Assembly (NCBI RefSeq): GCF_013376455.1
Contig: NZ_CP045504.1
Span: 3,431,001-3,495,000, forward strand
Origin: Desulfolutivibrio sulfodismutans DSM 3696
GTDB taxonomy: Bacteria > Desulfobacterota > Desulfovibrionia > Desulfovibrionales > Desulfovibrionaceae
Direction of reading: 5' to 3'
DNA: 64,000 nucleotides
The first letter of the stretch is position 1. Each line of letters begins with the position of its first letter. Shown one piece after another: positions 298-46,025 of this stretch. Under the pieces are notes generated by a model that saw only the letters and a list, made by a program, of their open reading frames with translations, was not told the DNA's origin and ran no database searches. Both the position numbers and the translations under genes were made by a program.

Positions 298-768
298 TTA
301 CTCCCCGCCCTCGGTAAACGCGGCGTCCTGCTGATCCTTGCGCCGCAGGTTCTTGCCCAGGGCCGCGATCACGGCCTGGAGCTGCTTGGTGGTGGCCCAT
401 TCCAGCTTTTCCGGGCCGCCCTGGCGTTTGAGGATGGCCAGGGCGTAGTCCCAGGGCACGAACCGGCCCTGGACGTTGGCCGTTTCGGCAAGTAAGGCCT
501 CGATTTTGCCCATGAGCGCCGAGCGGTCGTAGTCGCGCTGCGCGGGCGCGGCCCGGTCGCCACGGCGCCGGGCAGGGGCCTGGAAGCCCCGCCGCGACAG
601 GAACCGCAGCAGATCGTCAAGCTGCTTCATATCCAGTGTGCCCGCCGATTCCGCGCCGTAGCGGCCGTCCAGCATGGCCCGGTAGTCCGGGTCATCCATG
701 CCGAGCTGCTTCTTGGCGATGTGGATTTTGGCCAGCATGCCCTGGCGGCGGGAGGTCGAGCGGTTCAT
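298..768 (-). CDS. gemA: GemA (Mu gp16-like) regulatory protein
   Basis: This 156-residue protein matches the phage GemA/gp16 family, which in Mu modulates host gene expression and DNA topology. The family signature is near the N-terminus: LAKIHIAKKQLGMDD, then YRAMLDGRYG and a small-helix segment ending LLRFLSRRGF. The second half (about residues 85-150) has the usual GRFVPWDYALAILKRQ and KLEWATTKQLQAVIAAL segments. I chose the ATG at 768 because GGAGGC stands 4 bases upstream; an upstream extension in the same frame lacks family similarity. It overlaps the preceding small gene by 4 bases (ATGA), which suggests translational coupling. Confidence 0.85.
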   Translation of the reverse strand: MNRSTSRRQGMLAKIHIAKKQLGMDDPDYRAMLDGRYGAESAGTLDMKQLDDLLRFLSRRGFQAPARRRGDRAAPAQRDYDRSALMGKIEALLAETANVQGRFVPWDYALAILKRQGGPEKLEWATTKQLQAVIAALGKNLRRKDQQDAAFTEGGE

Positions 769-1164: not shown

Positions 1165-1565
1165 CACGCATCCCCCCGGACCAGCGTGATGTCCGTGTTG
1201 TTGCGGATCAGGTGGCGGCGCAACGGCCCAAAGCTCGGCCAATAGGGAAGCCACGCGGTAAATGTCTCTTTATGACGGCTGGGGCGTTTCGCGAGGCGAG
1301 CGATCTTTTTTTCCTGCTCCTGTTGTTTCCTGTTCAATATCGGACGCGTCGAAGGCCGGTAAAACCGCCGTCTCTCCTCGCAATCCTCAAAAAGCCACTG
1401 CCCCTTGAAGTACCCATTGACAAAGGGGACGATGGCATACTTGAGCGTACCTACCGACTCTACTTTCAAGCCAAGCGTAAACCCGTCGCACATCAACTGC
1501 ACATGTCCGTAGGGATGGCTGCACCCCCTCTCAACATAGTCCCAGTCTTCTTTTGTCATCGTCAT
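1164..1565 (-). CDS. conserved Mu-like phage early protein, function unknown
   Basis: This 133-residue protein resembles a family recurrent in early regions of Mu-like phages, recognised by an N-terminal WDYVERGCSHPYGHVQLMCDGF segment and a later NGYFKGQWL segment followed by a very basic region (about residues 65-100). The role is not known. The start at 1565 overlaps the stop of the NUMOD4 gene as ATGA; a second in-frame ATG lies two codons downstream. Composition is less GC-rich than the flanking phage genes. Confidence 0.6.
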   Translation of the reverse strand: MTMTKEDWDYVERGCSHPYGHVQLMCDGFTLGLKVESVGTLKYAIVPFVNGYFKGQWLFEDCEERRRFYRPSTRPILNRKQQEQEKKIARLAKRPSRHKETFTAWLPYWPSFGPLRRHLIRNNTDITLVRGDA

Positions 1566-2074
1566 ATCGCCACCATGTACACCTGAAGTTCCGCCTCCAG
1601 TTCCGCCACCAGCCGCTTGAGCTGCCTGTTTTCGCCTTTCAGAATCGCGTTTTCTTCGGTCATCGTCGCGTCGGTTGTCCGGTGTACACGCTTGGCGCGC
1701 GAATCAAGGGCATCAAGTATTTCTCGCAACCGATCAATCTCGCATTGCTTATCCTCGATTTCGCATTCCAATTCCTCTTTTTCGCGCTCAAGCGCCGCGC
1801 ACCTGTTGTCGTCCGACTCGGCAGGGGCGGGGATGGCCAGGGGAGGGAGTTCCGGGCGGGGAGCCTTTATTGGCTTGGACTCCGACCCGCCCTCGCGGGG
1901 TCCGAAAGCCTGCTCAACCAGCTCAAACGGATAAAAATATCTCCGCTGTTTCCCGTCCCACAGCCCGTAGCGGCGGCCGCTTTTCCCGAGCTGATACCCG
2001 GTGCCCGTCTTGCGGACTGTGCCGGACTCGCTGATTTCGTAGGCCGGATAATTCGGGATGGTGCGCCATTCCAT
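1562..2074 (-). CDS. NUMOD4-domain protein with C-terminal coiled coil
   Basis: Residues 2-47 (EWRTIPNYPAYEISESGTVRK and following) match the NUMOD4 module, a DNA-binding motif normally found beside HNH homing-endonuclease domains in phages. No HNH catalytic block follows. Instead residues about 88-165 form a long charged coiled coil (EREKEELECEIEDKQCEID and onwards). This may be a nuclease remnant or a phage regulator built from the DNA-binding module alone. It is the first gene downstream of hammerhead copy 1; the ribozyme ends 12 bases before its start codon, and the ribosome site is weak (GAGCAAG). Confidence 0.7.
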   Translation of the reverse strand: MEWRTIPNYPAYEISESGTVRKTGTGYQLGKSGRRYGLWDGKQRRYFYPFELVEQAFGPREGGSESKPIKAPRPELPPLAIPAPAESDDNRCAALEREKEELECEIEDKQCEIDRLREILDALDSRAKRVHRTTDATMTEENAILKGENRQLKRLVAELEAELQVYMVAI

Positions 2075-2086
2075 GTCTTGCTCGTT

Positions 2087-2152
2087 GGCTGCTCATCAGG
2101 CCGGACGCGCCACCGTCCGACGACCGCCCCGCAGGGCGGTTTCGCTAAAGCC
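2087..2152 (-). ncRNA. type II hammerhead ribozyme, copy 1
   Basis: On the transcribed minus strand this reads stem II 5' side, GAA, a 7-bp stem III (ACCGCCC/GGGCGGT, loop TGCG), C17, an 8-bp stem I (GTCGGACG/CGTCCGGC, loop GTGGCG), CTGATGA, stem II 3' side. All hammerhead core positions are present, including A15.1-U16.1 and C17. Stem II is open: GC/GC plus an outer GGCT/AGCC after a 3-base bulge. Predicted cleavage is between complements of 2122 and 2121. The stop codon of the upstream gene (2145-2147) lies inside stem II. Confidence 0.88.
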
Positions 2153-2354
2153 TTCCGTCTGGTAAATCGAAGACGTACTTTGCTTTTGTTCTCCAGACAC
2201 GACCACATCTCCTACAACTCACACTGCTGTAATCGCTTCGCGTTGCATGGTATCCAGAGAATGCAGAGCAATGGTATCTTCTCTTAAAAACAAACCACGC
2301 ACGTTCATTCAATGGTTTCTTTCGTTCCTCGCATGTGCATGAGAACCCGCCCAT
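2145..2354 (-). CDS. small phage protein with zinc-ribbon-like cysteines
   Basis: This 69-residue protein has a cysteine pair near the N-terminus (CTC at residues 6-8), a central histidine, and a C-terminal CRRCGRVWRTKAKYVFDLPD segment. It resembles small early phage proteins with a putative metal-binding knuckle; the function is unknown. The ATG at 2354 has an excellent AGGAGGAGGT ribosome site. Its TAG stop is embedded in hammerhead copy 1, so translation termination and ribozyme folding compete for the same bases. Confidence 0.65.
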   Translation of the reverse strand: MGGFSCTCEERKKPLNERAWFVFKRRYHCSAFSGYHATRSDYSSVSCRRCGRVWRTKAKYVFDLPDGRL

Positions 2355-2367
2355 TCGACACCTCCTC

Positions 2368-2619
2368 CTACTGCTCCCGGCGCAGGCTTTGTTCGACGCG
2401 CCGTGAGAAATCCAGCACAGCGGCCACTTTCGCACTATCATCCTGTGCCAAGGCAAGGTTTGGAACGAGCATAATCACGCCATCCCATGCATGCACCGCA
2501 AGATCACGGACGGCACGCTGGAGTTGACACGCATCGCCACTAGCTATTGGGAGCGCACCGTCCGGGCACGTCTCGTTGATGCGAACCACTCCGTTGGTGA
2601 AGCAATATGCGACGGCCAT
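2368..2619 (-). CDS. small conserved Mu-like phage protein, function unknown
   Basis: This 83-residue protein opens MAVAYCFTNGVVRINETCPDGALPIASG, a pattern shared with short proteins encoded near gam in Mu-like phages. It then has a segment with HAWDGVIMLVPN and a helical C-terminus. No catalytic motif is visible. The ribosome site AGGAGA lies just downstream of hammerhead copy 2, so cleavage would leave this gene at the head of a new 5' end. The gap to the following gene is 13 bases. Confidence 0.65.
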   Translation of the reverse strand: MAVAYCFTNGVVRINETCPDGALPIASGDACQLQRAVRDLAVHAWDGVIMLVPNLALAQDDSAKVAAVLDFSRRVEQSLRREQ

Positions 2620-2634
2620 GTGTCTCTCCTCGGC

Positions 2635-2691
2635 TGCTCATCAGGCCGGGACCGCCACGTCCCGACGACCGCCCCGCAGGGCGGTTTCGCA
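2635..2691 (-). ncRNA. type II hammerhead ribozyme, copy 2
   Basis: Transcribed-strand order is TGC, GAA, stem III ACCGCCC/GGGCGGT with TGCG loop, C17, stem I GTCGGGAC/GTCCCGGC with GTGGCG loop, CTGATGA, GCA. Every conserved hammerhead nucleotide is present. Cleavage is predicted between complements of 2667 and 2666. Compared with copy 1, stem I differs at three base pairs and all three changes are compensatory. The upstream gene stop (TAA, 2692-2694) abuts the 5' side; the AGGAGA ribosome site of the downstream gene follows the 3' side almost directly. Confidence 0.9.
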
Positions 2692-2961
2692 TTATTTCTC
2701 TTCATTTGCTTCGAATGCTTCAATGGCTTTGAGTACTCGCGCCGGAAGCACCTTGCAGTACTCCTCCGGAAACCCGAGCCATGCTTTCAAGTGGGCACCG
2801 ACAGCGGCGGCAAGAGCAGCATCACGCAAGGTTTTTCCATACGTTGTGCAGTGCTTGAGTTGATGCTTGTCGTCATACGCGATGATAATGACCTGTTCCT
2901 TGTCATAGTCCTCGGCTATCCGCTTTGCTGCCTCAATTGGCACCGGCACATACTCGGCCAT
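2692..2961 (-). CDS. small conserved phage protein, function unknown
   Basis: This 89-residue protein starts MAEYVPVPIEAAKRIAEDYDKEQVIII and continues with YDDKHQLKHCTTYGKTLRDAALAA. It resembles short phage-encoded proteins of this pattern with no assigned function. The ribosome site GAGGGGG sits between hammerhead copy 3 and the ATG at 2961. Its TAA stop directly abuts hammerhead copy 2, so the gene is bracketed by ribozymes on both sides. Confidence 0.65.
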   Translation of the reverse strand: MAEYVPVPIEAAKRIAEDYDKEQVIIIAYDDKHQLKHCTTYGKTLRDAALAAAVGAHLKAWLGFPEEYCKVLPARVLKAIEAFEANEEK

Positions 2962-2978
2962 GTTTCATCCCCCTCGGC

Positions 2979-3035
2979 TGCTCATCAGGCCGGGACCGCC
3001 ACGTCCCGACGACCGCCCCGCAGGGCGGTTTCGCA
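2979..3035 (-). ncRNA. type II hammerhead ribozyme, copy 3
   Basis: It is identical to copy 2 over the whole ribozyme and a few flanking bases. Core elements on the minus strand: TGC then GAA (3032-3030), stem III with TGCG loop (3029-3012), C17 (3011), stem I with GTGGCG loop (3010-2989), CTGATGA (2988-2982), GCA. Cleavage is expected between complements of 3011 and 3010. The TGA stop of the upstream 44-residue gene (3036-3038) abuts the element, and the next gene starts 17 bases after it. Confidence 0.9.
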
Positions 3036-3170
3036 TCACTCCAGATTTCCCTCCCGCTTCAAGGCGGCGAGTGTGCGATCCGCAGATTCCTCGCCGCCGC
3101 TGTATTCGGCAAAGTCACCCCAATGCTCTTCGAGAGTGGCCACAACCGCCGCATAATCGATGTCATCCAT
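3036..3170 (-). CDS. very small phage protein (44 residues), function unknown
   Basis: The 44-residue product starts MDDIDYAAVVATLEEHWGDF and is acidic and helical. The ATG at 3170 is preceded by GGAGA at good spacing. An upstream in-frame extension would run antisense-like through the preceding gene and is rejected. The stop codon abuts hammerhead copy 3. No homologous function is recognised; the gene is supported by its ribosome site and operon position. Confidence 0.5.
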   Translation of the reverse strand: MDDIDYAAVVATLEEHWGDFAEYSGGEESADRTLAALKREGNLE

Positions 3171-3180
3171 AGCAGGTCTC

Positions 3181-3387
3181 CTATTCCACCCCGGCCATGA
3201 TCCGCCGGGCCGTGGTTTGCAGACACACCACGGACACGCCGCAGGCCGCAGCGTCATGGATGGCCCGGGACAGTTCCTCCGCCCGCTTCTTCCAGGCCAG
3301 GGCCTGGGCCTCGGCCGCCCGCAGCACCCGCATGGGCACATGCCGTTCGACCACCTCGACCGTGCCGCCTTCCGCCTGCCCGCTCAT
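3181..3387 (-). CDS. small phage protein, function unknown
   Basis: This 68-residue protein is mostly helical (RVLRAAEAQALAWKKRAEELSRAI) with two cysteines in the C-terminal half. The ribosome site AGGAGG lies 7 bases before the ATG at 3387, and the ATG overlaps the gam stop as ATGA, implying coupling to Gam translation. Function unknown. Confidence 0.6.
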   Translation of the reverse strand: MSGQAEGGTVEVVERHVPMRVLRAAEAQALAWKKRAEELSRAIHDAAACGVSVVCLQTTARRIMAGVE

Positions 3388-3917
3388 GCCGCAGCCTCCT
3401 TGATTTCCTCGGCCGAAAGCTCGTAGTAGAAGACGTCCTTTTTCGCGCGCCTTGCCCCCACGAGTTCCAGGCGCTCGTCAGGCCACTTCACCATTTCGTC
3501 CCGGTTCAGCTCTTCTTTGATGCGGACGGCACCGGCAAACGGATCGTCGGGCTCTCCGGTAATCAACGTCTTGATCCGCTCCAGGATGCCCGCGAGAGTC
3601 CCCTTGCCCTTGGCCTTTATCTCCGTGGAACGCCGGAAGCCGATGGTCCCGAAATTGAGCTGTCTGCTTCGCGCCTTCTCGAACAATTCATCCTTTTTCG
3701 ATCCCGCGAAGGTGACCAAGGCCGCTTCAATGGCCTTTTTATCCCCCAGCTTGGCCGCCAGCCGCTCCTTGGCCAACGCCTTCATCTTGTCGATGGTCTC
3801 GTTGAGCTTGCCTTCCTCGGCCTCTACGGCCCGCTGGATCTCCGCCAGCCGGGCCAACGCCTTGTCCGCCGCGTCCAGGTCCGCGATCAAAAAGGCCGGA
3901 TTCGGTTTCGTGCGCAT
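3384..3917 (-). CDS. gam: Gam, host-nuclease inhibitor
   Basis: Mu Gam binds double-stranded DNA ends and protects them from host exonucleases such as RecBCD; it is related to eukaryotic Ku. This 177-residue protein has the family length (Mu Gam is about 174). The first 65 residues form the helical stalk (LDAADKALARLAEIQRAVEA onwards), and the middle carries FGTIGFRRSTEIK, the beta-rich DNA-binding part. The ATG at 3917 has AGGAGA 6 bases upstream; the in-frame extension upstream is low-complexity arginine and lysine and is not part of the family. Confidence 0.9.
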   Translation of the reverse strand: MRTKPNPAFLIADLDAADKALARLAEIQRAVEAEEGKLNETIDKMKALAKERLAAKLGDKKAIEAALVTFAGSKKDELFEKARSRQLNFGTIGFRRSTEIKAKGKGTLAGILERIKTLITGEPDDPFAGAVRIKEELNRDEMVKWPDERLELVGARRAKKDVFYYELSAEEIKEAAA

Positions 3918-4605: not shown

Positions 4606-5162
4606 GACGCCTCCTCGGCCGGGGCCGATTCGGCCATGATCTCGCCGGTATTGGCGTCCACCAGCCGCCGGATGCGCTGGATAAGCGGCGCGCGCGCCCC
4701 GGTGCGCATGGCCTCGATGGCCACATACCGTCCGGCCCCGGCCTGCCGCAGGTAACGGCCGCGCGTCAGCCAAACGCAGTAGTAAACGGCCTCGGCCACA
4801 GCCACCGGGGCCTCGGGCAACGAGGCCGTGATCGCCAGATCGCGGGGCGAGAATTCTTTCAGGATGCCCATGGCCCGCCACATGCGCTGCCGTCCGGACG
4901 GCGGCAGGACGCGGCCGTCCTTGGCCACGCGCGGGGCGTCCACGCCCATGTCCCGGGCCAGCCGGTACAGTTTGCGCGTCCGGCCGCGCGGCCCCATGAC
5001 CATCTCGCCGGAGTCGGCCACGATCCCGGCCAGGACCAGGGCCTTGACGTAGTCCGTGGCCGCCGGTTCCGTAGCCTTGGCCGCCCGGGACACGTCCACG
5101 AGGGTGAAGCTGCCGAGCTGGCGCATGGCGGTCCACATGGCGTCACGCTTCGAGATGGCCAT
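4602..5162 (-). CDS. Mu-like phage early protein with winged-helix-like segments
   Basis: This 186-residue protein has two successive helix-turn-helix-like blocks: residues about 3-60 (RDAMWTAMRQLGSFTLVDVSRAA) and about 90-140 (RQRMWRAMGILKEFSPRDLAITA). The duplication suggests a tandem winged-helix architecture. It occupies the position just after MuB seen in many Mu-like phages of proteobacteria. I chose the ATG at 5162 because GGAGG is 8 bases away; a GTG at 5168 overlapping the MuB stop is only 2 bases from that site. The exact role is unknown. Confidence 0.65.
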   Translation of the reverse strand: MAISKRDAMWTAMRQLGSFTLVDVSRAAKATEPAATDYVKALVLAGIVADSGEMVMGPRGRTRKLYRLARDMGVDAPRVAKDGRVLPPSGRQRMWRAMGILKEFSPRDLAITASLPEAPVAVAEAVYYCVWLTRGRYLRQAGAGRYVAIEAMRTGARAPLIQRIRRLVDANTGEIMAESAPAEEAS

Positions 5163-9520: not shown

Positions 9521-10288
9521 ATGCCTACTGAAAACGTCAAAAAAGTTGCAAATTCGGTTGCAAACACCCCGGATGAAAATGCAACCGATTTTGTCGGCGT
9601 TTACGGCCGCCTGAAAGATGCAACCGGTGCCAAGACTGACACGGATCTGGCGCACGCCCTCGGTCTGCGGCAATCCAGTGTTTCAAGTGCGAAGAGCAAA
9701 AAAGAGTTACCTCCCGCCTGGATATTTGAAATCGCAAAGCGGTTTAATGTTTCGAGTGATTGGATTCTCTTCGGAAGTGGAGAGATGAATCGTGATAGTG
9801 ATGTGACAAGTTTACAAAACCTTGGATCAGAAACACGCACATCACATAAAGAACCACTAGATGAACCAGGATTTACGTTAATCCCAAAAGTAAAAGCTAG
9901 GCTCAATGCAGGAACAGGAAGCCTGGAAACCAGCGCGGAAACCATTGGCCATTATGCGTTCAAGACACAATTCCTCAAACGGAAAGGAAACTCCACGAGA
10001 ATGGTCCTAATGGACATCCACGGCGACAGCATGGAACCTGTACTCGAAGATCAAGACACCGTGTTGATCGACGAAAGCCAAAACGAAATACTATCCGGCT
10101 GCATGTTCGCTGTCGGCGTCGATAACGAGGTCTTTGTCAAATACGTGGATCGTGAGCCAGGAATGCTGATTCTGCGCAGCCGTAACGAACGTTACAAGCC
10201 CATCGAAGTTCCCATGAGCGGCGACTTGGCCGACACCGTCCGCATCATCGGCCGCGTGGTCTGGTCCTGCCGGGAGTACGGCGGCTAA
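9521..10288 (+). CDS. LexA/CI-type prophage repressor with S24 peptidase domain
   Basis: This 255-residue protein maintains lysogeny. The N-terminal part (about residues 22-85) is an HTH (TDTDLAHALGLRQSSVSSAK). The C-terminal part is a peptidase S24 fold with nucleophile S170 (HGDSMEP) and lysine K207 (VFVKYVD). The Ala-Gly pair at 130-131 (RLNAGTGS) is a plausible RecA-stimulated self-cleavage site, so induction by DNA damage is expected; classical Mu c lacks this domain. I chose ATG 9521, where family similarity begins; an upstream in-frame TTG start is unlikely. Composition is more AT-rich than the host. Confidence 0.88.
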   Translation: MPTENVKKVANSVANTPDENATDFVGVYGRLKDATGAKTDTDLAHALGLRQSSVSSAKSKKELPPAWIFEIAKRFNVSSDWILFGSGEMNRDSDVTSLQNLGSETRTSHKEPLDEPGFTLIPKVKARLNAGTGSLETSAETIGHYAFKTQFLKRKGNSTRMVLMDIHGDSMEPVLEDQDTVLIDESQNEILSGCMFAVGVDNEVFVKYVDREPGMLILRSRNERYKPIEVPMSGDLADTVRIIGRVVWSCREYGG

Positions 10289-10410
10289 CCGTCAAAACTA
10301 TCCGTCGCAACCGCGCCAAAAATTCAAAACTAAACGTCGTCGGCGTCTTCACGCGCCAGTCCATCGCGCCCCCGGCCCTTCACCCCGAAACCCGCACCAT
10401 TAGCCGGTTT

Positions 10411-10460
10411 TCGTCCCGCTATGTCCCGCTTCCTCCCGGCATATCCCGGTTTCCCCGCTA
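10411..10460. repeat. five phased 10-bp repeats near the prophage left end
   Basis: Five consecutive decamers (starting at 10411, 10421, 10431, 10441 and 10451) share the core TCCCG, with C(G/C)T/C after it; the fifth has CCCCG. Exact 10-bp spacing places all cores on one DNA face. The location between repressor and host DNA is where transposase end-binding sites are expected, so these may bind MuA-type transposase or a bending protein. Confidence 0.6.
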
Positions 10461-10586
10461 GTCAAATCTATGTGTCACGGCACACCAGGAGTTGTTCGAA
10501 AGTGATGCGTGTTCAAACGTGCAGCGCAGTTGTCCCGTGTGGCAGGTCTTCGGGCCGTCCCTGCGTTTGCGGGGAGGGGCGCGGCG

Positions 10587-11240
10587 TCAAGCCGGAGAAC
10601 CCCCGGCCAGGCGGCGGCCCAGATCCTGCGCCCTGGCGCAATCCTGGGGGAAGGCCTCCTCGCGGCGTTTGCGCTTGGCCGTCTCATCCCAGACCGTGCA
10701 CAGGTACTTGGAATAGTCCGGAAACTGGTAGGTGTCTTGGCACAGCAACACCTCGCAGGCGCCGAAGGTCCGGGCCATGGGTTCGCGCAGGCGCTTCACG
10801 ATCCGGTCGTAGCCGCGTTCGGCAAAGATCGTTTCCGGCACGTTCATGGTGTAGATCAGGGCCGTGGGGATCTTTTTCGGAAAAATCGAGGGATAGCCCG
10901 GGGTGTAGGACAGGTAGGGAAAAAGCAGGCGCTCGATGAGGCAGCGCGTCATGCCGGACTCGGCGCCGAAATAGATCGGCGTGCCCAGGATCAGGGCGTC
11001 GGCCTGCGCCGCCTCCTCCAGAATCGGGGTCAGCCCGTCCTTGACTGCGCAGCGGCCGTAGCTTTTGCCGCCGATTTTCTTACACTCGAAACAACTGATG
11101 CAGCCCGTATAGTCCAGATCATAGAGATGGACGATCCGCGCCTGCGAGCCAGCCTGCCGCGCCCCGTCCAGGGCGTGTCCGAGCAGGGTGGCGGTGTTGC
11201 CCTTTTTTCGGGGACTGCCGTTTATGGCCAGGATATGCAT
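10587..11240 (-). CDS. flavodoxin-fold NAD(P)H-dependent FMN reductase family protein
   Basis: The 217-residue product begins MHILAINGSPRKKGNTATLL, the FMN phosphate-binding loop (GSPRKKGNT) of the NADPH-dependent FMN reductase/iron-sulfur flavoprotein family. A cysteine-rich segment follows (GCISCFECKK, then RCAVKD), and a TPIYFGAESG loop contacts the flavin ring. It probably transfers electrons from NAD(P)H or an Fe-S centre; the substrate is unknown. The start at 11240 has AGGAGC 4 bases upstream. It is the first chromosomal gene beyond the prophage left end and appears intact. Confidence 0.8.
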   Translation of the reverse strand: MHILAINGSPRKKGNTATLLGHALDGARQAGSQARIVHLYDLDYTGCISCFECKKIGGKSYGRCAVKDGLTPILEEAAQADALILGTPIYFGAESGMTRCLIERLLFPYLSYTPGYPSIFPKKIPTALIYTMNVPETIFAERGYDRIVKRLREPMARTFGACEVLLCQDTYQFPDYSKYLCTVWDETAKRKRREEAFPQDCARAQDLGRRLAGGSPA

Positions 11241-11409
11241 GGGGGCTCCTTTCTTTCCTCCCCCATACGACTCCCCGCCGGGCCGCGCAATCAGGCACAA
11301 AAAAGGAACTGAGTCCCCAGGGAGGAACCCGGCCTCCGGCGGCGGGGCCGGTTTTCATGTCCTGCAGGATCAGGGGACGCGCCTTGCGGTTCATCTCGCC
11401 CCCGCCGGA

Positions 11410-13293
11410 TCAGCCGTCGTCTTCGGCAAGCACCACGATGCGGTCGCCAGGGGCGAAGGTGATGGTGTCCCGGACGCCGGGGTTGAGCCGCACGCCGTAA
11501 TTGGCCCCGGCATCCGAGGCCGTGGCGATGCTCCTCCAGCCGAGGGCCGATTCACCGCGCCGCAGGGCGGCCTGGATCACGGTGGCGAAGTTCACGGGGC
11601 AGCCTTCCCGCACATAGGACGAGGCCGGTTTGAGATACAGTTCCGAGCCCTCGGCCCGAAACAGCTCCCCAAACACCCGGAGCAGCTCGGGATTTTCGCT
11701 GACCTGGGCCAGCATCATGCTCAGGAGCCGGTCGCTGACGATGAAGTCGTCGGCCCGGGCCGCCTGGGCCAGGGCATGGTTGCGGTCGTCGAGGATCTGG
11801 GTGGTGATGGGAAAGTGGCGTCCCAGCCGATCGGCGATGGCCCGCAGATGCAGCAGGATGGCCAGGGTCCGGGCGTCGGCGCTTTGCAGGGGCAGGCTGG
11901 GATCGCTGAAGACCATGACATGGTCGAAATCCTGGGGCGACAGGCTTTGCAGGACATCCGGGTCCGAAACCTCGCCGATCCTGGACTCCACGCGCATGGC
12001 CCGCAGGTTTCCCGGGATGGGGGCGTTGGACGCGAACGCCGGGGCCACGATGAGCGCGTCGGAGCCGGGGGCGGCATATTCGTCGGTGCTGGCGAGAAAC
12101 AAGGGCCCAAGCTGGTTCCAGCCGAGGATGAGCAGGCGCTCCGGCGCGGCCGCGCTGGCTGGAACGTCCGCCAGAACCGAGGCGTCGACGGCAGGGGCGT
12201 CGTCACTCAGGGCGATCATGCTGTCATCCTGGGCCAGACAGATCAGGGCGTCCCCAGGACCGAAAACCGTATCCGCAGGCGGGTTGATGAGCACCTCGCC
12301 GGCCGCCGTGCGCAGGCCCATGGCCGAGCCGTGCCCCATGCTCAGGGCGATGCGGCCATAGGTCTTGCCAGTCAGGCGTTGATCCGCATGCATGTAGATT
12401 TCGTCGCCGGAAAAATCCAAAAGATCGGTGAGAATGGCCGAGAGCCCCGGTTGGCGGCAGGTCTGGGCCATGATCCGGGCCACGATGCCGCCGGCCGGGA
12501 TGAAGACGGCCCGGCCCGCCCCGGCGATGGTCGCGGCGGAGAGGCTGTTGTCGCTGCGCAGCACGGCGGCGATGCCGGGGCCCCCCTCGACGCCGTCCAG
12601 ACGGCGCGACAGGGCGAGCACGGTCTTGAGCACCACCGCGTCAGGATCGTCGGGGTCGGCGGTGATGATCAGGATGGACTTGGCCGCGCCGGGATTGACG
12701 ATGGCCAGGTCATCGACGTCCGTGGGGTCGCCCGTGCGGCAGACGAGGCGTCCCCCCTTGGGCAGCGAGATCTTGTCGCGCAGTTCGTCCTGCATCTCGA
12801 CCTTGTCTCTCTGGGCCATGATAGCGATGCAAAAGGATCCTTGGCTCTCATTGGCCAGGGAAAGCTCCGAGACCAGGGCGAAGATGTGCGGGGACCAGCC
12901 CAAAATGACGCTGTGGCCCGTCTCGGCCACCAATGAGCGGCCTTTGCGCAGTTCCTCCAGCCTGGCCTCCAGCCCCGTGGTCAGCACGCCGATGAGGCTG
13001 CTGAAGATGAACACGCCGCCAGCCGTCACCAAAAGCATCAGCACCAGGTAGCTCCAGTCTCCGCTGTCCCCGGCCAGGGTTCCGGCGTCCATGAGGCGCA
13101 TGAGGTTTCCCCACATGAGCAGCGGCAGCGGTTGGGGCTCCGGGGCGAGATCCAGGAAGACGACAAGGGTGGAGGCGATCAGAATGATGATTGCCGACAT
13201 GGTGAAAAGGCCAAGGATGAGGGCCCCTGACCCGCGCGACATGAACGAATCGAATTTATACCTGAGTGTATCCGTCATGCGTATCCTGTTCAT
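11410..13293 (-). CDS. CASTOR/POLLUX-type ion channel protein with RCK-like domains
   Basis: This 627-residue membrane protein has TM segments at about residues 22-45 and 80-105 (ALILGLFTMSAIIILIAS; YLVLMLLVTAGGVFIFSSLIG). The diagnostic GHSVILGWSPHIFALVSELSLANES stretch of the CASTOR/POLLUX family follows, with two regulatory Rossmann/RCK-like regions. Plant relatives are nuclear-envelope calcium or potassium channels; bacterial members are thought to be cation channels. I chose ATG 13293 with AGGAGC upstream. It stands alone, with 169 bases to the flavoprotein gene downstream. Confidence 0.82.
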   Translation of the reverse strand: MNRIRMTDTLRYKFDSFMSRGSGALILGLFTMSAIIILIASTLVVFLDLAPEPQPLPLLMWGNLMRLMDAGTLAGDSGDWSYLVLMLLVTAGGVFIFSSLIGVLTTGLEARLEELRKGRSLVAETGHSVILGWSPHIFALVSELSLANESQGSFCIAIMAQRDKVEMQDELRDKISLPKGGRLVCRTGDPTDVDDLAIVNPGAAKSILIITADPDDPDAVVLKTVLALSRRLDGVEGGPGIAAVLRSDNSLSAATIAGAGRAVFIPAGGIVARIMAQTCRQPGLSAILTDLLDFSGDEIYMHADQRLTGKTYGRIALSMGHGSAMGLRTAAGEVLINPPADTVFGPGDALICLAQDDSMIALSDDAPAVDASVLADVPASAAAPERLLILGWNQLGPLFLASTDEYAAPGSDALIVAPAFASNAPIPGNLRAMRVESRIGEVSDPDVLQSLSPQDFDHVMVFSDPSLPLQSADARTLAILLHLRAIADRLGRHFPITTQILDDRNHALAQAARADDFIVSDRLLSMMLAQVSENPELLRVFGELFRAEGSELYLKPASSYVREGCPVNFATVIQAALRRGESALGWRSIATASDAGANYGVRLNPGVRDTITFAPGDRIVVLAEDDG

Positions 13294-13693
13294 GTTCGCT
13301 CCTTTTCCGGGTGGCTGCCTATGTTTGTCCATCATTGCATTGGGGAATGCGAAAAGAGCCCCACGGCCATTTCACTGCACGACATTGCAAAAATGACGTA
13401 GAAGTGGCATAAAACCGAACATTTGTGCATACATGAGTGAGGCAAGACATGAGAACGCGTGATACTTTGCGGCCGACGCGGCGATGGCCCGGGAGGGGTG
13501 GTTGCTGGGAGAAGAAAGGGCCACGGTATGCGTGATCATCGTTCCCTTGATATCATGGAATATGCAGGAATGTCATGAAGTTTATCAGGCATATCCGGAA
13601 GGTGCGAACCCGTTTTACACGTCTTGAAAACAGAGGGAATGGCACGGAAAAATCGGGCATGGCCCGTGGCCGACGACGAACTGATCGGAAGCG
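13294..13693. other. intergenic region without a convincing gene
   Basis: About 400 bases between the channel gene and the chemoreceptor terminator. It is less GC-rich than its surroundings and should contain the channel promoter reading leftward. Short frames here have no ribosome site and no protein-like sequence. No tRNA arms or riboswitch pattern were seen. Confidence 0.5.
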
Positions 13694-13732
13694 AAAACGG
13701 CCCACTCCCACAACCGGGGAGACGGGCCGTTC
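13693..13732 (-). terminator. intrinsic terminator of the chemoreceptor gene
   Basis: On the minus strand AACGGCCC and GGGCCGTT pair, with an inner CTCCC/GGGAG stem, and the stem ends in TTTT. It lies 26 bases after the chemoreceptor stop and is a good rho-independent terminator. Confidence 0.75.
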
Positions 13733-13758
13733 TCCTTGCCGCCGTGCCGCCTGGGCGG

Positions 13759-15324
13759 TCAGACGTGGGCGGTGGGGCACAAACCCATGGCCTTGACGCT
13801 GGCGGCCGTGCGCGCCAATTCCCCGTCGCGCAGGGTCGTGGCCGCCAGCTCGCGTACCTGGGTCACCTGTTCGACCAGGCGTTCCAGCTCCCGGCTGGCG
13901 TTTTGCACCTCGTCGTACACCTCCTGGGAGGTGTCCGTGACGTTTAAGGCGCACATGTTGATCTCGAAGCTTGAGGCGCATTGCTGCTCGGCCCGGTGGG
14001 CGATGTCGTCGATCCCCCGGGCGGCGGAGACCATGGCCTCGGCAATGGCCGCAAACGAGTTCTCCACGGACTCGACCAGACCGCAGGAGGAGGAGATGTC
14101 CTCATTGGTCGCGGCCATGGCGTCCACGGCCTTTCGGGAACAGGTCTCGATGGCCTGCACGGCCGTGCGGACCTCCCGGGTGGCCGTGATGGTTTTTCCC
14201 GCCAGTTTGCGGACCTCGTCGGCGACCACGGCGAAGCCGCGTCCCGCCTCTCCGGCCCGGGCGGCCTCGATGGCCGCGTTGAGCGCCAGCAGGTTGGTCT
14301 GGTCGGCGATGTCGGAGATGATGTCGGCCACGTTGCCGATGCTGCCGGCCTCGCCCACCAACTGCGCCAGGATGAGTTGCAGGTTGTCGTAGGAGGCCAC
14401 CACCTTGTGCGTCACCTCGGCGGTGCGTTTGATGGTCCCGGCCCCGTCGCGGGCCTGGTTTTCGGCCCCTATGGCGGTCTGGGCGGTTTCCGCGGCCATG
14501 GTGGCCATCATGCGCACGTTGTCGGTCATCTCCTGCATGGCCTGGGCCACCTGCCCGGCCTGGTCCTTGGAGTCGTGCATGGAGGCGACCAGGGAGACCA
14601 GGCTGTGGCTGATGTCCTTGCTCTGGTTCTCCAGGGCGGCGGCGGCGTCCGTGATGCGGGCGTTGATGTCCCGGATGGTCGCGTGCGCCGTCTCAAGGCT
14701 CGCAACGTCCCGGCAGGCCCCGGTCATATCCTGGAAGAGGCACAGCCAGCAGCCCTCGGCCGTGTCGATTTCGCGCAGATCCACCCGGTACAGGGATTCT
14801 TCGCCCAAAGGACGGGCGACGCGCAAAAGCGATCCGTCATAGTTTCCGGAGCGCAGGTTGTCCCAGGTTCCGGCGCTGGTCCGGGCGCAGAAGGCATCCA
14901 TCGTGTCCTGTCCCGCCATCCCGCGCCCACCGCCCATAAGGGCGGCCATGGACTCGTTGCGCCACTTCAGTTGGCCTGAACAGACGACCGTCATGCACGG
15001 AAGCGGCAGGCGGGCCAGGAGATCCAGGGCTTGGCGCTGCTCCCGGCAGGCTGTGCTCAGACGCCTGTCCAGGCTTTGTATCAGGTTGTCGGTTTCGGCC
15101 TCGACGGGGAGTTCTCCTGCGGGCAAAAGCGCCCGGAGCCTCCCCTGAAGGGTGGACATGGCCCGGCGGCTGGCCGCCCAACTGGCCACGATGGCCGCGA
15201 CGCAGGCCACGGCCAAGGCCGGAACCGCCTTGCTCCATGGCCCGTCGAGAGATCCCGTCACCCCTGCCGCTATGGCCAGGATGACGGCGACGACAGCCGC
15301 AGTGAAGGAGAGTCCGTGTGCCAT
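13759..15324 (-). CDS. methyl-accepting chemotaxis protein
   Basis: The 521-residue chemoreceptor has two TM helices at about residues 6-23 and 34-52 separated by only a short loop, so it lacks a periplasmic sensing domain. A cytoplasmic PAS-like region (about 100-205) follows, with the input probably sensed inside the cell. The signalling hairpin tip is at about 336-376 ([20 protein letters not shown], then [15 protein letters not shown]), the CheA/CheW contact. It starts 6 bases after the hemerythrin stop without a clear ribosome site, suggesting coupled translation. Confidence 0.9.
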
Positions 15325-15330
15325 GGCCGA

Positions 15331-15738
15331 TCAAACGACGCCGGCTTTGTTGAGGAAGGGGCTGTATTTTTTGTCCGTGCCTTTGATGTGGTTCACCAGC
15401 CAGTTGGAGAGGAAGTTCAGGATGTCCATGGACATGGCACACTTGCCGCTCTTGAGGTCTTTTTCCACGGCGATGACCTTGGCCACGAATTTGTCGTGCT
15501 CGGCCTTGTGCGCCGTGTAGTCCGGATAGCCGTGGGTCTTCATGTGCCGCTCCTCCGTGGCGAAATGGCTGGCGGCGTATTTTTTCATCTCGGCGACCAT
15601 CGGCATGGCAAGCGCGTCGGCCTTGCCCTCCTTCATGGCCGTGTGCAGGCGATTGACCATGTCCACCAGCTTTTTATGCTGGTCGTCGATTTCCCGGATA
15701 TTTACCGAAAGACGGTCGTTCCATTCGAGAAGCGCCAT
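15331..15738 (-). CDS. bacteriohemerythrin
   Basis: This 135-residue oxygen-binding protein has the complete di-iron ligand set: H21, H58, E62, H77, H81, H117 and D122. Single-domain bacteriohemerythrins bind O2 reversibly in the cytoplasm and are common in microaerophiles and anaerobes. A strong AGGAGG site precedes the ATG. It is co-transcribed with the chemoreceptor downstream; the pair suggests oxygen-responsive behaviour, with hemerythrin as sensor partner or O2 buffer (inference). Confidence 0.95.
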   Translation of the reverse strand: MALLEWNDRLSVNIREIDDQHKKLVDMVNRLHTAMKEGKADALAMPMVAEMKKYAASHFATEERHMKTHGYPDYTAHKAEHDKFVAKVIAVEKDLKSGKCAMSMDILNFLSNWLVNHIKGTDKKYSPFLNKAGVV

Positions 15739-16134
15739 ACTGAACCTCCTTGTGATTCAAGTTTCCAGAAAGTTCAACGAGTTAGGTAAAACGGATAAGT
15801 AAGACCCGATTTATCCCATATGCACAACCTTGGCAAGGGTCAAAATATCATTAAAACGTCAATAAACCGAAATATAACGGATTATTTGTGAAAAAAAATG
15901 CAAAGCGTCAGGCCCGGAGGCCCTCACACGTCAGGCCAGGGCTGTCTGCGGGGGAGACCCCCCTGGTATGTGGCGGGTTGTATTGATTTGGCGGAAAAAG
16001 GGGTTGTCGCGGGGAGGGGGGCGTGACAGAAGACGGGAGCCGTCCCGCCAGCCGGGCGGCCCGGCAGGGACGCCCCCGGCCGGGCGATGCCCGGATCACG
16101 GGCAGGATTGACCGCAACGGAGAATGCCCGAACC
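15739..16134. other. divergent intergenic region
   Basis: About 395 bases between hemerythrin (leftward) and the MFS gene (rightward). The hemerythrin-proximal half is AT-rich and holds the candidate promoter. The MFS-proximal half is GC-rich; in-frame codons before 16135 could extend that protein but lack hydrophobic or conserved sequence. Confidence 0.5.
15815..15843 (-). promoter_or_regulatory. candidate sigma70 promoter for hemerythrin-chemoreceptor
   Basis: On the minus strand TTGACC (complement of 15838-15843) is followed after 17 bases by TATGGG (complement of 15815-15820), about 75 bases before the hemerythrin start. The surrounding AT-rich DNA fits a promoter, but the -10 match is partial. 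Confidence 0.35.
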
Positions 16135-17319
16135 ATGACCCGATGTACCTGGAAGCGGGCCGACCTGCTCGTGCCCATGGTCATGACCCTGACGGCCATC
16201 GCCACCATCTACGCCCCCCAGCCGCTCCTGCCGCTTCTGGCCGGGGAGTTTCGCCTGAGTCTGGCCACGGCCGCCCTGGCCGTGACGGCCACGCTTTTGC
16301 CCCTGGCCGCCGGGCCGCTCGTGTACGGCTATCTGCTGGAATCGGTCTCGACGCGGCAAACCATGGTGGTTTCCCTGGCGGTCCTGGCCGCCACCCAGGC
16401 CGGGCTGGCCTTTTGCGATTCCTTCGGGGTGTTTCTGGCCCTGCGTTTCGTCCAGGGCATGGCCGTTCCGGCGCTTCTGACCGCGCTTATGACCCACGTC
16501 GCGGCCTCGGCCACGCCGGATCGGGTCCATGCGGTCATGGCCACCTACATCGCGGTGACCACCCTGGGCGGATTTTCCGGGCGTTTTTTCTCGGGGCTTG
16601 CGGCGGCGCAGTGGGGGCGTCGGGCTCCCTTCGCCGTGCTGGCCGCGCTTTTGTGCGGGTGTCTGGCCCTGGCCAGGACGCTTTCGGCCGACGCGCGTAC
16701 GGAATTCGCCAAGCCTTCGCCGGGGATCGTCCGGCAGGTCTTGGCCCGCCCCGGGTTTCTCAAAACCTACCTCATGGCCGCCTGCCTCTTTTTCGTCTTT
16801 ACCGGCATGCTCAACATCCTGCCTTTCCGCCTGACGGAAATAGAGGGGCCGGTCTCCTCGGCGCGCATTGGTTTTATGTATCTGGGCTATCTGGTGGGCA
16901 TCGCCGCTTCCCTGTGGTCGCCCCGGGCGTCGCGGCTTCTGGGCGGGCGCAAGGCCGTGCTCACCGTCGGGTTGGCCGTGGAGGCCGCCTCCGTGCTGGT
17001 CTTCGCCGCGCCTGCGGCCTGGGCCATCTTTTTTTCCGTGGTGGTCCTGTGCGGCGGGATGTTTCTGACCCACGCCGCAGCGCCGGGCATCCTCAACGCG
17101 GCCGTTCCCCGGCAAAAGGGCGTGGTCAACGGGCTGTACCTGGCGTTTTATTACAGCGGCGGGGTGCTGGGCTCCTATCTGCCAGGGCTGGCCCGCGACA
17201 GGCTGGGGTTTTGGGCGGCCGTGGCCCTGCTTTTCGCCGTGGCCCTGTGCGCCCTGGGGCTGGCCGCAAGCCTGGGGCCCGGGATCTTCGACGGCCACCG
17301 CCCCGAAAACCCGGCCTGA
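16135..17319 (+). CDS. major facilitator superfamily transporter
   Basis: The 394-residue inner-membrane protein has about 12 hydrophobic segments in two halves. The N-terminal segment carries TIYAPQPLLPLLAGEF, the pattern of the YnfM/inner-membrane efflux MFS group (IYAxQPLLP). A central loop at about residues 185-205 separates the halves. The substrate cannot be deduced; this subgroup includes drug and sugar efflux proteins. I chose ATG 16135 (GGAG 11 bases upstream) over one 16 codons earlier, because the extra residues are polar. Confidence 0.85.
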   Translation: MTRCTWKRADLLVPMVMTLTAIATIYAPQPLLPLLAGEFRLSLATAALAVTATLLPLAAGPLVYGYLLESVSTRQTMVVSLAVLAATQAGLAFCDSFGVFLALRFVQGMAVPALLTALMTHVAASATPDRVHAVMATYIAVTTLGGFSGRFFSGLAAAQWGRRAPFAVLAALLCGCLALARTLSADARTEFAKPSPGIVRQVLARPGFLKTYLMAACLFFVFTGMLNILPFRLTEIEGPVSSARIGFMYLGYLVGIAASLWSPRASRLLGGRKAVLTVGLAVEAASVLVFAAPAAWAIFFSVVVLCGGMFLTHAAAPGILNAAVPRQKGVVNGLYLAFYYSGGVLGSYLPGLARDRLGFWAAVALLFAVALCALGLAASLGPGIFDGHRPENPA

Positions 17320-17455
17320 AGACCTGACCGGGGCGCGCCGCGTCCCGGGAAGCGCCCGCCTGGAATCGTGGGAAACAATCCCCCTGCCCTGCCGCCCCGG
17401 CGTTCCGGGCCTCCCCGCACCTGGCGGCCCGACGGCCGGGCCGTCCCCCCTGGCC

Positions 17456-19507
17456 TCAGATGCGCACCCGGATGACGCTCAAAAGGTCGTTGGCATAGAC
17501 GCCGTCGCGCTTGTACTCGCGGTATCCGGCGCTGTGGGCGCAGCCCACGGCGTAGAGCCGATCGTCCTCGGCCACCAGATGCGAGGTGAACTGGCCGCAG
17601 GTGAGCTGGCAGAAGATCTGGGACACGTCCACCACGTCGCCGGGCGCGATGTCCGGATTGGTGGAGGCGATGACCAAGCCCCCGGGCGTCACGAACATGC
17701 CCTCCGATCCGTTCAGAATGTCGCCCTGCCCGTCCCGGGGCAGGCAGTCGCGCAGCATGGACAAAAACTGCGGCTCGGAATCGAACACGATGCCGATGCC
17801 GCCGAGCACGGTCCCGGGATCGGCCAGGGAGGTGATGGAGGCGTTGTAGATATAGGTGCGCCGGGGTGCGCCATCAGTGGCGTAGAGATCCGTCGGCTCG
17901 AAACCCGAGACGCAGTAGTGCTGGGAATCGACGAGGCGCAGGGTCCGGGAGACGAAATCGGCCTGAAGGACGCGGCCCACGTGATGGTTCTCGTCGGGGT
18001 TGGAGCAGGCCAGGATCGTACCGCTTGTGTCGTAGACGAAGAGGTTGGTGTACACGGTGTAGAGGCTGTTGATGTAGGCCAGGATCTCGCGCATGCGGTC
18101 GCGCTCGTCGGGCGGAAGGACGGGTTTGTCCAGGAAGTGCCGGAAGTCCGAGGTCAGCGCCCACCAGCGGCAGTCGTTGGCCCGCTCGTAGAGGTTGCGG
18201 TCCATGATGTCGATGGCCAGTTGGGCCAGGAAGCGCACGTCATGCAGGCGCGAGGAGGTCACCAGCTTGAGCAGGGCGTCGGTGGAGGTCTGGAAGACGT
18301 GCTGCACCTGGTCGCCGATCTTTTTGACCTCGTTTAAGACGTAGGGCAGGGCCTGGGCCTCCACCCGCTCCGAGAGATCGGCCTGGAGGGATTTCTTGGC
18401 GGCCATGATCTCGCCGTTTTGCACCACCAGCTCCAGGTCGGACAGCACGTTTTCCGAGGCCTCCTCCACCTGGACCAGACGGCCGGAAAAGATGGCGTTC
18501 TGGCGGATGGTGCGTTCGTCCAGGCCGTGGCCGTTTGATCCGTTGCGAAAGGCCGTGGTCACCCGCTTGGCCACATGGCCGTACCAGGGCAGGCCGAAAA
18601 AGCCCTGGTAGCCGTTGGTGGCCAGGGTCTTGGCCAGATAGGGCTCCCCGGCGATCTGCTCCAGGTGGAAGTCGTCGTTTCGGGCCATGGCATAGGTCCG
18701 CCCGGCCGGGGCCTTGGCCGGGTCGCTGCTGGCGATGGCCTTGCCGGATTCGTCGAGGATCATGATGATGATGTCTTCCGAGGACTGGGCGAGGTTTTCG
18801 AAGATGCCCGCCATTTCCCCGGCGAAATCGAAAACCAGGCACAAAACGCCAAGCGGGACGCCCGAGTCGGGATGGCGGATGGCCTGGGAATAGATGAGCG
18901 CGTCGCCGCGCCCCGGGGCTAGGTCGGATTCCCGGTAGGTCTCCACATAGGAATCGGCGGCCAGGGTTTCCTTGAAAAGCGGATCGGCGGTGCGGGTGAT
19001 GCGGTTTTCGTGGTCCAGGTGGGCCCGCACCCGGCCCTGGTCGTCCAGGACGATGATTTCGTCGTAGACCGTGTACTTTTCCCGGTATTCGCGCAGCCGA
19101 TCCTCGATGATCTGGGCCGCCTCCATGTGGCCCTGCCCGTCGAGGAGGAAGCGCACCAGCTCGTCGTCCGTGGCCAGAAATCCCACGTCGGCGGTGCGCT
19201 CGAAGAGGTTGCGCTTAAGGATGTCGATGGCCACCTGGGCCACGGCGGAGATCTCCAGAACCACTTTTTGGGTGCTTTCCAGAACCAGGGTGTCCAAAAG
19301 GGTGGTCTGCAGGGAGGCGAAATTGTCCTGGGTGGTGATGATGAAGTCGATGAGCGTCTGGGCGATGCGGCTGCAATTGATCTTGCCGGTCAGGGTGGCC
19401 CGGGTCCATTGCCGGTCCAGGCGGGTGAGCACGTTTTGGCATTGGGTCACGGACGCCATGGCCGACAGCAGGGTTTTTTCGTGTTTTTTCACCAGATTTT
19501 TGTCCAC
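17456..19507 (-). CDS. soluble tandem-Cache-domain protein
   Basis: The 683-residue protein has two homologous halves. Each begins with a helical lead-in (VAIDILKRNLFERTADVGFLATDDELVRFL in the first; LAIDIMDRNLYERANDCRWWALTSDFRHFL in the second, at about 90 and 450) followed by a Cache-type sensor (YTVYDEIIVLDDQG; YTVYTNLFVYDTSG). There is no signal peptide or TM helix, so unlike most Cache receptors it appears cytoplasmic. No kinase, GGDEF or MCP output domain is visible. It may be a ligand-binding partner of the chemotaxis system. Confidence 0.75.
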   Translation of the reverse strand: MDKNLVKKHEKTLLSAMASVTQCQNVLTRLDRQWTRATLTGKINCSRIAQTLIDFIITTQDNFASLQTTLLDTLVLESTQKVVLEISAVAQVAIDILKRNLFERTADVGFLATDDELVRFLLDGQGHMEAAQIIEDRLREYREKYTVYDEIIVLDDQGRVRAHLDHENRITRTADPLFKETLAADSYVETYRESDLAPGRGDALIYSQAIRHPDSGVPLGVLCLVFDFAGEMAGIFENLAQSSEDIIIMILDESGKAIASSDPAKAPAGRTYAMARNDDFHLEQIAGEPYLAKTLATNGYQGFFGLPWYGHVAKRVTTAFRNGSNGHGLDERTIRQNAIFSGRLVQVEEASENVLSDLELVVQNGEIMAAKKSLQADLSERVEAQALPYVLNEVKKIGDQVQHVFQTSTDALLKLVTSSRLHDVRFLAQLAIDIMDRNLYERANDCRWWALTSDFRHFLDKPVLPPDERDRMREILAYINSLYTVYTNLFVYDTSGTILACSNPDENHHVGRVLQADFVSRTLRLVDSQHYCVSGFEPTDLYATDGAPRRTYIYNASITSLADPGTVLGGIGIVFDSEPQFLSMLRDCLPRDGQGDILNGSEGMFVTPGGLVIASTNPDIAPGDVVDVSQIFCQLTCGQFTSHLVAEDDRLYAVGCAHSAGYREYKRDGVYANDLLSVIRVRI

Positions 19508-45613: not shown

Positions 45614-45648
45614 CCGCCGGGCAGGCGGGATTTTGGCGATGATGTTCG

Positions 45649-45826
45649 TTTCCCTGGAGTGTGCGTGATCGACGATTCATTTTTGAGCCGATACTCAAAA
45701 ATAGGATGCCGCGTGTTACGGTCGGTGTGCGAACCCGGGTCTCACCGGGGGGCCTGAAGGTCGTACCTTGGCGTCCACCTTGGCAACAAGGTTCAAAAAA
45801 ATTGCCGACACGGCGCTCCGGGGAAA
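45649..45826 (+). ncRNA. ssrS: 6S RNA
   Basis: About 178 nt. The ends pair over 13 bp: TTTCCCTGGAGTG (45649-45661) with CGCTCCGGGGAAA (45814-45826), allowing two G-U pairs. Inside lie GAGCCGAT after about 40 nt and a large, mostly unpaired central region, the 6S pattern mimicking an open promoter that binds sigma70-RNA polymerase. Location just downstream of zapA supports the call. Exact ends are approximate by a few bases. Confidence 0.85.
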
Positions 45827-46025
45827 ACGTTTCGGATCCCCGGGTAGAGCCCGACAGCCACGCCACGCGGCCTGGCCGGATTCCGAGACACCCAGATAGT
45901 CGCCGGATTTGCCTGACGCGGCAGGGCTCTCCCCTGCACGAACGCCCACGACTCTCCCCACCAGCGCCGAACCGACGGATCCGTCTCCGGTTTATGCGGA
46001 ACTTTTCCGCTTTGAAGGAGCCGTC

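Follow-up and report, generated by a model that had tools for sequence, protein, structure and literature searches.

The DNA analysed here (the window) is a stretch of 64,000 nt from Desulfolutivibrio sulfodismutans DSM 3696 (contig NZ_CP045504.1, positions 3,431,001 to 3,495,000), which carries a Mu-like prophage with three type II hammerhead ribozymes. The genes for a Mu-type transposase, Gam and GemA lie on one strand, and the hammerheads are situated between Gam and GemA. Three copies in sense orientation, numbered 3, 2 and 1 in the order of transcription, flank small genes of the prophage operon at a spacing of 344 and 545 bp (coordinates are given in Table 1). The initial annotation had placed three such ribozymes on the transcribed strand of the early operon of a Mu-like prophage and had proposed that the region be scored with the type II covariance model. 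Pfam matches of the transposase, Gam and GemA, all on one strand, confirm the setting. Scoring of the whole window by cmscan gave three matches to RF02276 (Hammerhead_II), all on the minus strand, all full length (1–66 of 66) and all above the gathering cut-off of 37 bits, in agreement with the claimed identity and strand.

The type II core as listed in the relevant passages of PMC3088659 (C3 U4 G5 A6 N7 G8 A9, G12 A13 A14, A15.1-U16.1 and H17) is found in all three copies. Each of them has G12 A13 A14, the A15.1-U16.1 pair, C17 and CUGAUGA, so the complete core with an open stem II that had been described initially is indeed present. The pattern GCGAAAC-N-GTC-N-CTGATGAGNAGCC occurs at only three places in the 64 kb, and these are the hammerheads; copies 2 and 3 are identical across the 59-base match. 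Chance origin was considered and rejected, the core pattern giving 0 matches in 100 dinucleotide-preserving shuffles. Stem III (7 bp) and stem I (8 bp) of each copy are closed by loops, and stem II is open and short (3, 3 and 2 bp, with 2 bp in copy 1). By sequence reading, loop I has the potential to form a pseudoknot with the tail, UGGC pairing with GCCG in copies 2 and 3 (one G-U pair) or with GCCA in copy 1. Copy 1 differs from the other two by three adjacent stem I pairs, with pairing kept; blastn aligns this difference with gaps, and paired small insertions and deletions are an alternative reading of it. Stems I and III are formed in the predicted minimum free energy (MFE) structures of all three copies, and stem II in those of copies 2 and 3 only. 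The cut positions recomputed from the sequence are equal to those predicted initially.

The source genome contains ten RF02276 matches at four places. Among 59 genomes, 17 have a match at E 0.001 and 16 have one over the cut-off, the source genome included; hammerheads of types I and III (RF00163, RF00008) were found in 0 of the 59 genomes each, and the controls were likewise without any match.

The 89-aa open reading frame (ORF) has matches in 1 of 288 genomes of the family, namely the source genome, with three copies, and the 83-aa ORF, which resembles host nuclease inhibitors, in 11 of 288, the source genome included. The 44-aa and 69-aa ORFs matched nothing in Pfam or PHROG up to E 0.1; the former has a homologue (family F5) ahead of the first hammerhead in L035 and L037, two further prophages of this genome. 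The NUMOD4 match of the 170-aa ORF (E 8.6e-5, 23.1 bits) is slightly under the cut-off of 23.4. A PADLOC search with seven ORFs gave a best E of only 0.0099 and no lead, and a search for similarity to the operon in plasmids gave no match. A 6S RNA (RF00013, 104.4 bits) is located elsewhere in the window, at 45648–45828 on the plus strand.

Table 1. Position of the hammerheads and the surrounding prophage genes in the window
Feature	Position	Strand	Evidence and remarks
Mu A-like transposase, 725 aa	6000..8177	-	Pfam rve E 1.6e-15, Mu-transpos_C E 4.2e-9
Mu Gam-like gene	3384..3917	-	Phage_Mu_Gam PF07352 E 1.2e-30
44-aa ORF upstream of hammerhead 3	3036..3170	-	ends at hammerhead; family F5
Hammerhead 3 (earliest in transcription)	2972..3036	-	RF02276 74.1 bits; predicted cut 3011/3010; upstream ORF stop TGA 3038-3036
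89-aa ORF between hammerheads 3 and 2	2692..2961	-	PHROG 38816 (function unknown) E 1.3e-10
Hammerhead 2	2628..2692	-	RF02276 74.1 bits; predicted cut 2667/2666; upstream ORF stop TAA 2694-2692
83-aa ORF after hammerhead 2, host-nuclease-inhibitor-like	2368..2619	-	PHROG 1518 'host nuclease inhibitor' E 1.6e-14
69-aa ORF with paired cysteines, behind 83-aa ORF and before hammerhead 1	2145..2354	-	translation
Hammerhead 1	2083..2147	-	RF02276 63.3 bits; predicted cut 2122/2121; upstream ORF stop TAG 2147-2145; stem I differs, pairing kept
170-aa NUMOD4/HNH-like ORF after hammerhead 1	1562..2074	-	PHROG 6086 HNH endonuclease E 6.2e-8
GemA-like gene, downstream of hammerheads	298..768	-	PF06252 E 3.7e-22
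Shared block, outer edge of hammerhead 3 to outer edge of hammerhead 1	2086..3034	-	blastn vs L035, L037

Conservation of the fold and position between genes

Loci with similar elements were gathered by pattern scans of viral and genome collections together with relatives. This sample comprises at least 363 hits, in 268 loci, of a detector that requires the core and minimal stems and gave 0 hits in 0.92 Mb of shuffled sequence. After exclusion of loci L001–L034 (duplicates of longer stretches), of copies whose flanks are identical and of hits less than 100 nt from a locus end, 291 distinct hammerheads in 221 loci remained. The counts given below for gathered hammerheads and for locus comparisons are counts among the matches listed.

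Pairing in the stems was examined on 250 distinct matches, selected by a pattern whose only fixed parts are the core, pairs 1 and 2 of stem III and pair 1 of stem II. Pairs 1–6 of stem I are formed in 92–96% of these sequences (shuffled-partner means 48–85%) and pairs 3–6 of stem III in 86–94% (47–62%). At each tested position pairing is above the largest of 200 partner shuffles, a procedure that leaves the relatedness of the sequences in the statistic, and each of the ten positions is occupied by five or six standard pair types. Judged by this covariation, the conserved property is the RNA fold. It is hardly credible that the elements are inactive relics carried along with phage genes. The lower score of copy 1 and its 2-bp stem II would suit a relic, but the cores are intact in all three copies, the covariation over the 250 matches is strong, and a hammerhead occupies a like operon position in the deposited genomes of three Mu-like phages whose hosts are named (described below).

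The hammerheads of the window are tightly fitted between genes. The upstream ORFs, stop codon included, terminate 3, 3 and 1 nt ahead of G12. Downstream, the predicted cut is followed by the next start codon after 42, 47 and 47 nt; for hammerhead 3 the latter distance is 49 nt if the ATG at 2961, behind GGGGG, is used. The same arrangement prevails in the larger sample. For 273 of the 291 hammerheads an ORF of 30 codons or more terminates within 60 nt, and the nearest stop is never inside the core. In 178 cases (61%) it ends 1–5 nt before G12; the corresponding proportion for 5820 positions drawn at random from these loci is 2.9%. Of the 291 hammerheads, 216 are enclosed by a stop less than 30 nt upstream and by a ribosome-binding site (RBS) with an ORF within 45 nt downstream; both were found for only 4 of 291 in the antisense control. 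Among the rest, 50 have the upstream stop only, 15 the downstream RBS and ORF only, and 10 neither. With this placement the upstream product of cleavage would therefore keep its stop and end in a hairpin, and the downstream product would begin in a hairpin and keep its RBS. Such a strict stop–ribozyme–RBS geometry, as read from the sequences, may be new.

The geometry also bears on the possibility that cleavage is gated by translation, the ribozyme being a sensor and not a constitutive cutter. A ribosome terminating at the stop would cover stem II and the GAA core, and given the usual footprint of a terminating ribosome, a stop 1–5 nt from G12, as in the above 178 hammerheads, puts the core under it. 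We nevertheless consider this explanation improbable, as the same placement is accounted for by a stop that is kept on the upstream product without a wasted spacer.

Hammerhead arrays in other phages

Much longer series of type II hammerheads are present in other records. The record IMGVR_UViG_3300017605_000570 (57 kb; L086, also L303) has 24 RF02276 matches, all over the cut-off, at 9932–17520 (7.6 kb). They are situated on one strand, with approximately one hammerhead per small gene. The detector recovers 22 of the 24; these possess 22 different stem I sequences (8–9 bp) and 18 different stem III sequences, and in 18 of the 22 an ORF of at least 30 codons ends 1–6 nt before G12. At E 0.001 there are 9 matches in the L067 record (8 over the cut-off), 9 in the L155 record (9), 11 in the L180 record (8) and 9 in the genome of Streptomyces sp. 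NRRL F-5123 (8). Arrays of this length with about one hammerhead per gene may be new.

The first 8000 bases of L155 correspond to Streptomyces phage Diane at 100%. Phage Diane itself (MF766046; L311, 41000–50483) has nine RF02276 matches of 37.6–58.2 bits on the gene strand. Seven of the nine are wholly outside annotated coding sequences (CDS), one overlaps the end of a CDS by 15 nt and one is inside a CDS. One hammerhead is directly upstream of an OCR-like antirestriction gene. The array adjoins a serine integrase gene, with no sign of Mu-like genes at this location.

In the Mu-like phages RC1, RS1 and RcWaterboi a single RF02276 match per fetched stretch was found (65.4, 65.4 and 65.8 bits, respectively), in sense orientation. 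The hammerhead belongs to the operon with the transposition genes, where it separates an HU-like or DNA-binding gene from its downstream neighbour. In RC1 and RS1 (L308 and L309; hammerhead at locus positions 4999–5064) the annotated start of the next gene, at 5050, is inside the ribozyme, and this start is therefore probably misplaced. Two further loci (L039, 7488–7553; L083, 4687–4751) have, ~5 kb upstream of their Gam-side hammerhead, an additional one that separates a small regulator-like gene from the transposase gene.

The shared gene block and similarity breaks at hammerheads

The segment bounded by the outer edges of hammerheads 3 and 1 (951 bp by blastn) is 99.5% identical to the corresponding segments of L035 and L037, with 1 mismatch and 4 gap openings. 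Outside the hammerheads, these two prophages otherwise share with the first 10.5 kb of the window only pieces of 51–651 bp at 74–86%. The identity begins with GCGAAACC and ends with AGCCA, i.e. at the edges of the outer ribozymes. In L035 and L037 the block is flanked upstream by a gene that is a diverged homologue of the 44-aa ORF (F5) and downstream by a different gene. L035 and L037 are 98.3% alike over 2050 bp at the block and are therefore counted as one comparison, not two. As far as sequence comparison goes, a shared block with hammerheads at both edges may be new.

A fourth prophage of this genome, L036, matches the window on the flanks at 91–95% in its main pieces (shorter pieces go down to 84%) and has one hammerhead only. 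The genes for the 44-aa, 89-aa and 69-aa proteins are absent from it together with two hammerheads. A gene map was drawn for 13 loci, picked for having hammerheads and for likeness to the group of the window. In each of them at least one hammerhead follows the families F0 (Gam), F9 or F3 (HU-like, by eye), with up to three intervening genes or none, and the surrounding gene content is variable. Ten homologues of the 83-aa gene are found in other genomes of the family. Four of these adjoin a hammerhead in 3-kb loci (three hammerheads after the gene, one before it), so this gene can have a ribozyme on either side or none.

The record L125 (IMGVR_UViG_2901954164_000005; with L306 and L307) is mosaic: one part corresponds to the window prophage and the other to the L035/L037 type, and the two meet in the hammerhead block. 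Its identity to the window is 100% over 6275 bp and, in 1928 bp that reach up to hammerhead 1, 99.95%; to L035/L037 it is 99.94–99.95% from hammerhead 3 onward. Taken at face value, the mosaic would imply a crossover within hammerhead 3, bounded on one side by its stem I and on the other by a C/T difference immediately ahead of the next ATG. It could equally be an artefact of assembly, two parts being joined at the repeat in the draft genome of this strain or of one almost identical to it; for this reason it is not used in the argument for exchange.

Breaks of similarity were evaluated in two ways. At gene junctions of 238 loci, the mean break fraction is 0.724 for hammerhead junctions, 0.567 for other junctions within 3 kb and 0.358 for junctions farther away. 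An informative partner was available for 155 of 317 hammerhead, 389 of 855 near and 193 of 548 far junctions. This test depends on a crude gene caller, and the comparison with the far class is one of accessory with core regions; its p-values of 7e-5 and 2.6e-15 are only indicative, because locus pairs are not independent. The second test took matches of at least 85% and at least 150 bp, with near-identical pairs of loci as well as the own group of the window and L125 left out. Similarity steps fall in a hammerhead in both loci at 42 of 352 informative ends; in 300 draws of the null the mean was 2.7 and the highest value 10. At 94% identity this applies to 6 of 50 ends (null 0.31) under the same exclusions. 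If the own group and L125 are included it applies to 11 of 59, the ends left after 23 of 82 near locus edges had been dropped. Such an enrichment of similarity steps at hammerheads, modest as it is relative to nearby gene borders, may be new.

These observations could mean that the elements are kept mainly as DNA, i.e. as near-identical gene-border repeats of ~60 bp for cassette exchange in early operons, any ribozyme activity being incidental. The block bounded by outer hammerheads and shared at 99.5% by divergent prophages would fit such a role, as would the excess of similarity steps at hammerheads and the identity of hammerheads 2 and 3 over the 59-base match. This explanation is unlikely, however, since DNA homology has no need of the compensated stem changes that keep the fold, all 22 detected stem I sequences of the L086 array differ from each other, and the position flush with the stop codon would be left unexplained.

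Proposed transcript processing and relation to known systems

We consider it likely that the type II hammerheads cut the early transcript of the Mu-like prophage co-transcriptionally into end-capped units, the exchange of gene blocks being a secondary by-product. In the proposed scheme the ribozyme sits flush behind the stop of one gene and shortly before the RBS of the next one. The cut would leave an upstream mRNA with its stop codon and the 7-bp stem III hairpin ending in 2',3'-cyclic phosphate, and a downstream mRNA with a 5'-OH opening into the 8-bp stem I hairpin, which is followed by its own RBS. The two products should part quickly because they are joined only by the 2–3-bp stem II and a short pseudoknot. 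Besides a head piece and a tail piece, two separate end-capped mRNAs would arise, 344 and 545 nt long. Reasoning from the architecture, type II is the sole circular permutation of the hammerhead that provides a closed hairpin on both products and links them by no more than the short stem II and the pseudoknot. Splitting of the mRNA into units ended by stem III and stem I follows from this predicted architecture and fits the stop–ribozyme–start geometry. As to the by-product, a gene with its ribozyme would form a self-contained module, and the near-identical ribozyme DNA could supply the homology for exchange of gene blocks between phages. The sequence, the fold as modelled, the geometry, the covariation and the identity of the block are shown directly; from them we infer cleavage in the cell, fast release, protection of the ends and homologous recombination as the route of exchange.

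Several observations weigh against this scheme. The MFE structure of copy 1 pairs the stem II region elsewhere, and the folding energies are not significantly below those of shuffled sequences (z of -0.62, -1.37 and -1.21 for the three copies); the z values are given little weight either way because the sequence is so G+C-rich. In 75 of the 291 hammerheads a stop or a start is lacking at the tested distances. In L036 the stop of the 83-aa gene abuts the start of the HNH gene (TAG-ATG), so that splitting is dispensable at the junction of these two genes. As concerns exchange, the excess of breaks over nearby gene junctions is modest, and ordinary gene borders also exchange. Most similarity ends are located outside hammerheads (at 94% identity, 48 of 59 informative ends are not in a hammerhead in both loci at once), and part of the hammerhead excess is expected from general exchange at gene borders because hammerheads fill these borders and are conserved.

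The ends left by hammerhead cleavage are well established (5'-OH and 2',3'-cyclic phosphate), and this chemistry would suit circularisation of the 344- and 545-nt segments between the hammerheads into circular mRNAs, by RtcB or by the ribozyme itself. The host genome does have an RtcB gene (529.6 bits), but its presence says little because 9 of 14 control genomes also match. Furthermore, a ligated circle would hold an intact hammerhead and could recut itself, and passages of PMC3088659 state that spliced or circular products could not be detected. Circular mRNAs are therefore very unlikely in our opinion.

A tentative extension of the scheme, possible but somewhat less probable than not, is modularity at two levels. 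At the RNA level a gene with its ribozyme would be an autonomous end-capped transcript unit wherever it lands; at the DNA level the ribozyme would be a joint for gain, loss and swap of genes. The extreme case would then be arrays in which hammerheads and genes are about equally numerous, as in the contig with 24 copies: an operon in the form of a string of exchangeable single-gene mRNAs.

The idea of mRNA splitting is not new, as PMC3088659 (Perreault 2011) already proposes it for clustered prophage hammerheads. Passages of that paper describe type II hammerheads, the loop I–tail pseudoknot and clusters flanking prophage genes, among them a triple prophage array around ardA of Agrobacterium tumefaciens that cleaves in vitro and in E. 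coli, and suggest that long phage transcripts are cut to operon- or gene-length mRNAs. Section 6 and the passages containing the relevant terms make no mention of block exchange or of arrays beyond three. According to passages of PMC10085705, which cite earlier work, hammerhead and twister ribozymes are enriched near Mu-like phage genes and near each other, and the reason for the association with Mu-like phage genes is still unknown. In the corresponding passages of PMC6155905 and PMC7761336 the prokaryotic role is called open, or genomic self-cleaving RNAs are tied to mobile elements. A literature search, judged largely by title and the start of the abstract, recognised no further work on phage hammerhead arrays; subscription papers for the most part, and bioRxiv, were outside its coverage. 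In passages of PMC6155905 and PMC10085705 the function of hammerheads for phages is still called open. With the geometry, the covariation, the hammerhead-edged shared block and the arrays of 8–24 copies over the cut-off, what was a loose association becomes a concrete model that can be tested, and the deposited phages Diane, RcWaterboi, RC1 and RS1 are laboratory systems for such tests.

The hammerheads of the window resemble the clusters described in the passages of Perreault 2011 in the type II fold, the loop I–tail pseudoknot, the repeated occurrence on the flanks of individual genes in a prophage operon, and the proposed role. In contrast to the triple array of Agrobacterium described there, the prophage of the window is Mu-like and its host belongs to the Desulfovibrionaceae. 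The window also differs from the clusters in those passages in that its outer copies bound a gene block common to other prophages of the same genome and that an array of related type (L086/G059) reaches 24 copies. The proximity of the ribozymes to Mu-like genes and to one another agrees with the association reported in PMC10085705, whose passages, unlike the present analysis, contain neither operon geometry nor an exchange pattern. Among the deposited phages, RC1, RS1 and RcWaterboi (Rhodobacter and Rhodovulum hosts) are similar to the window in having a sense hammerhead in the operon of the transposition genes, but with one copy each in the fetched stretch instead of three. Streptomyces phage Diane likewise has several hammerheads on the gene strand; its array differs from that of the window by lower scores and by its location beside a serine integrase.

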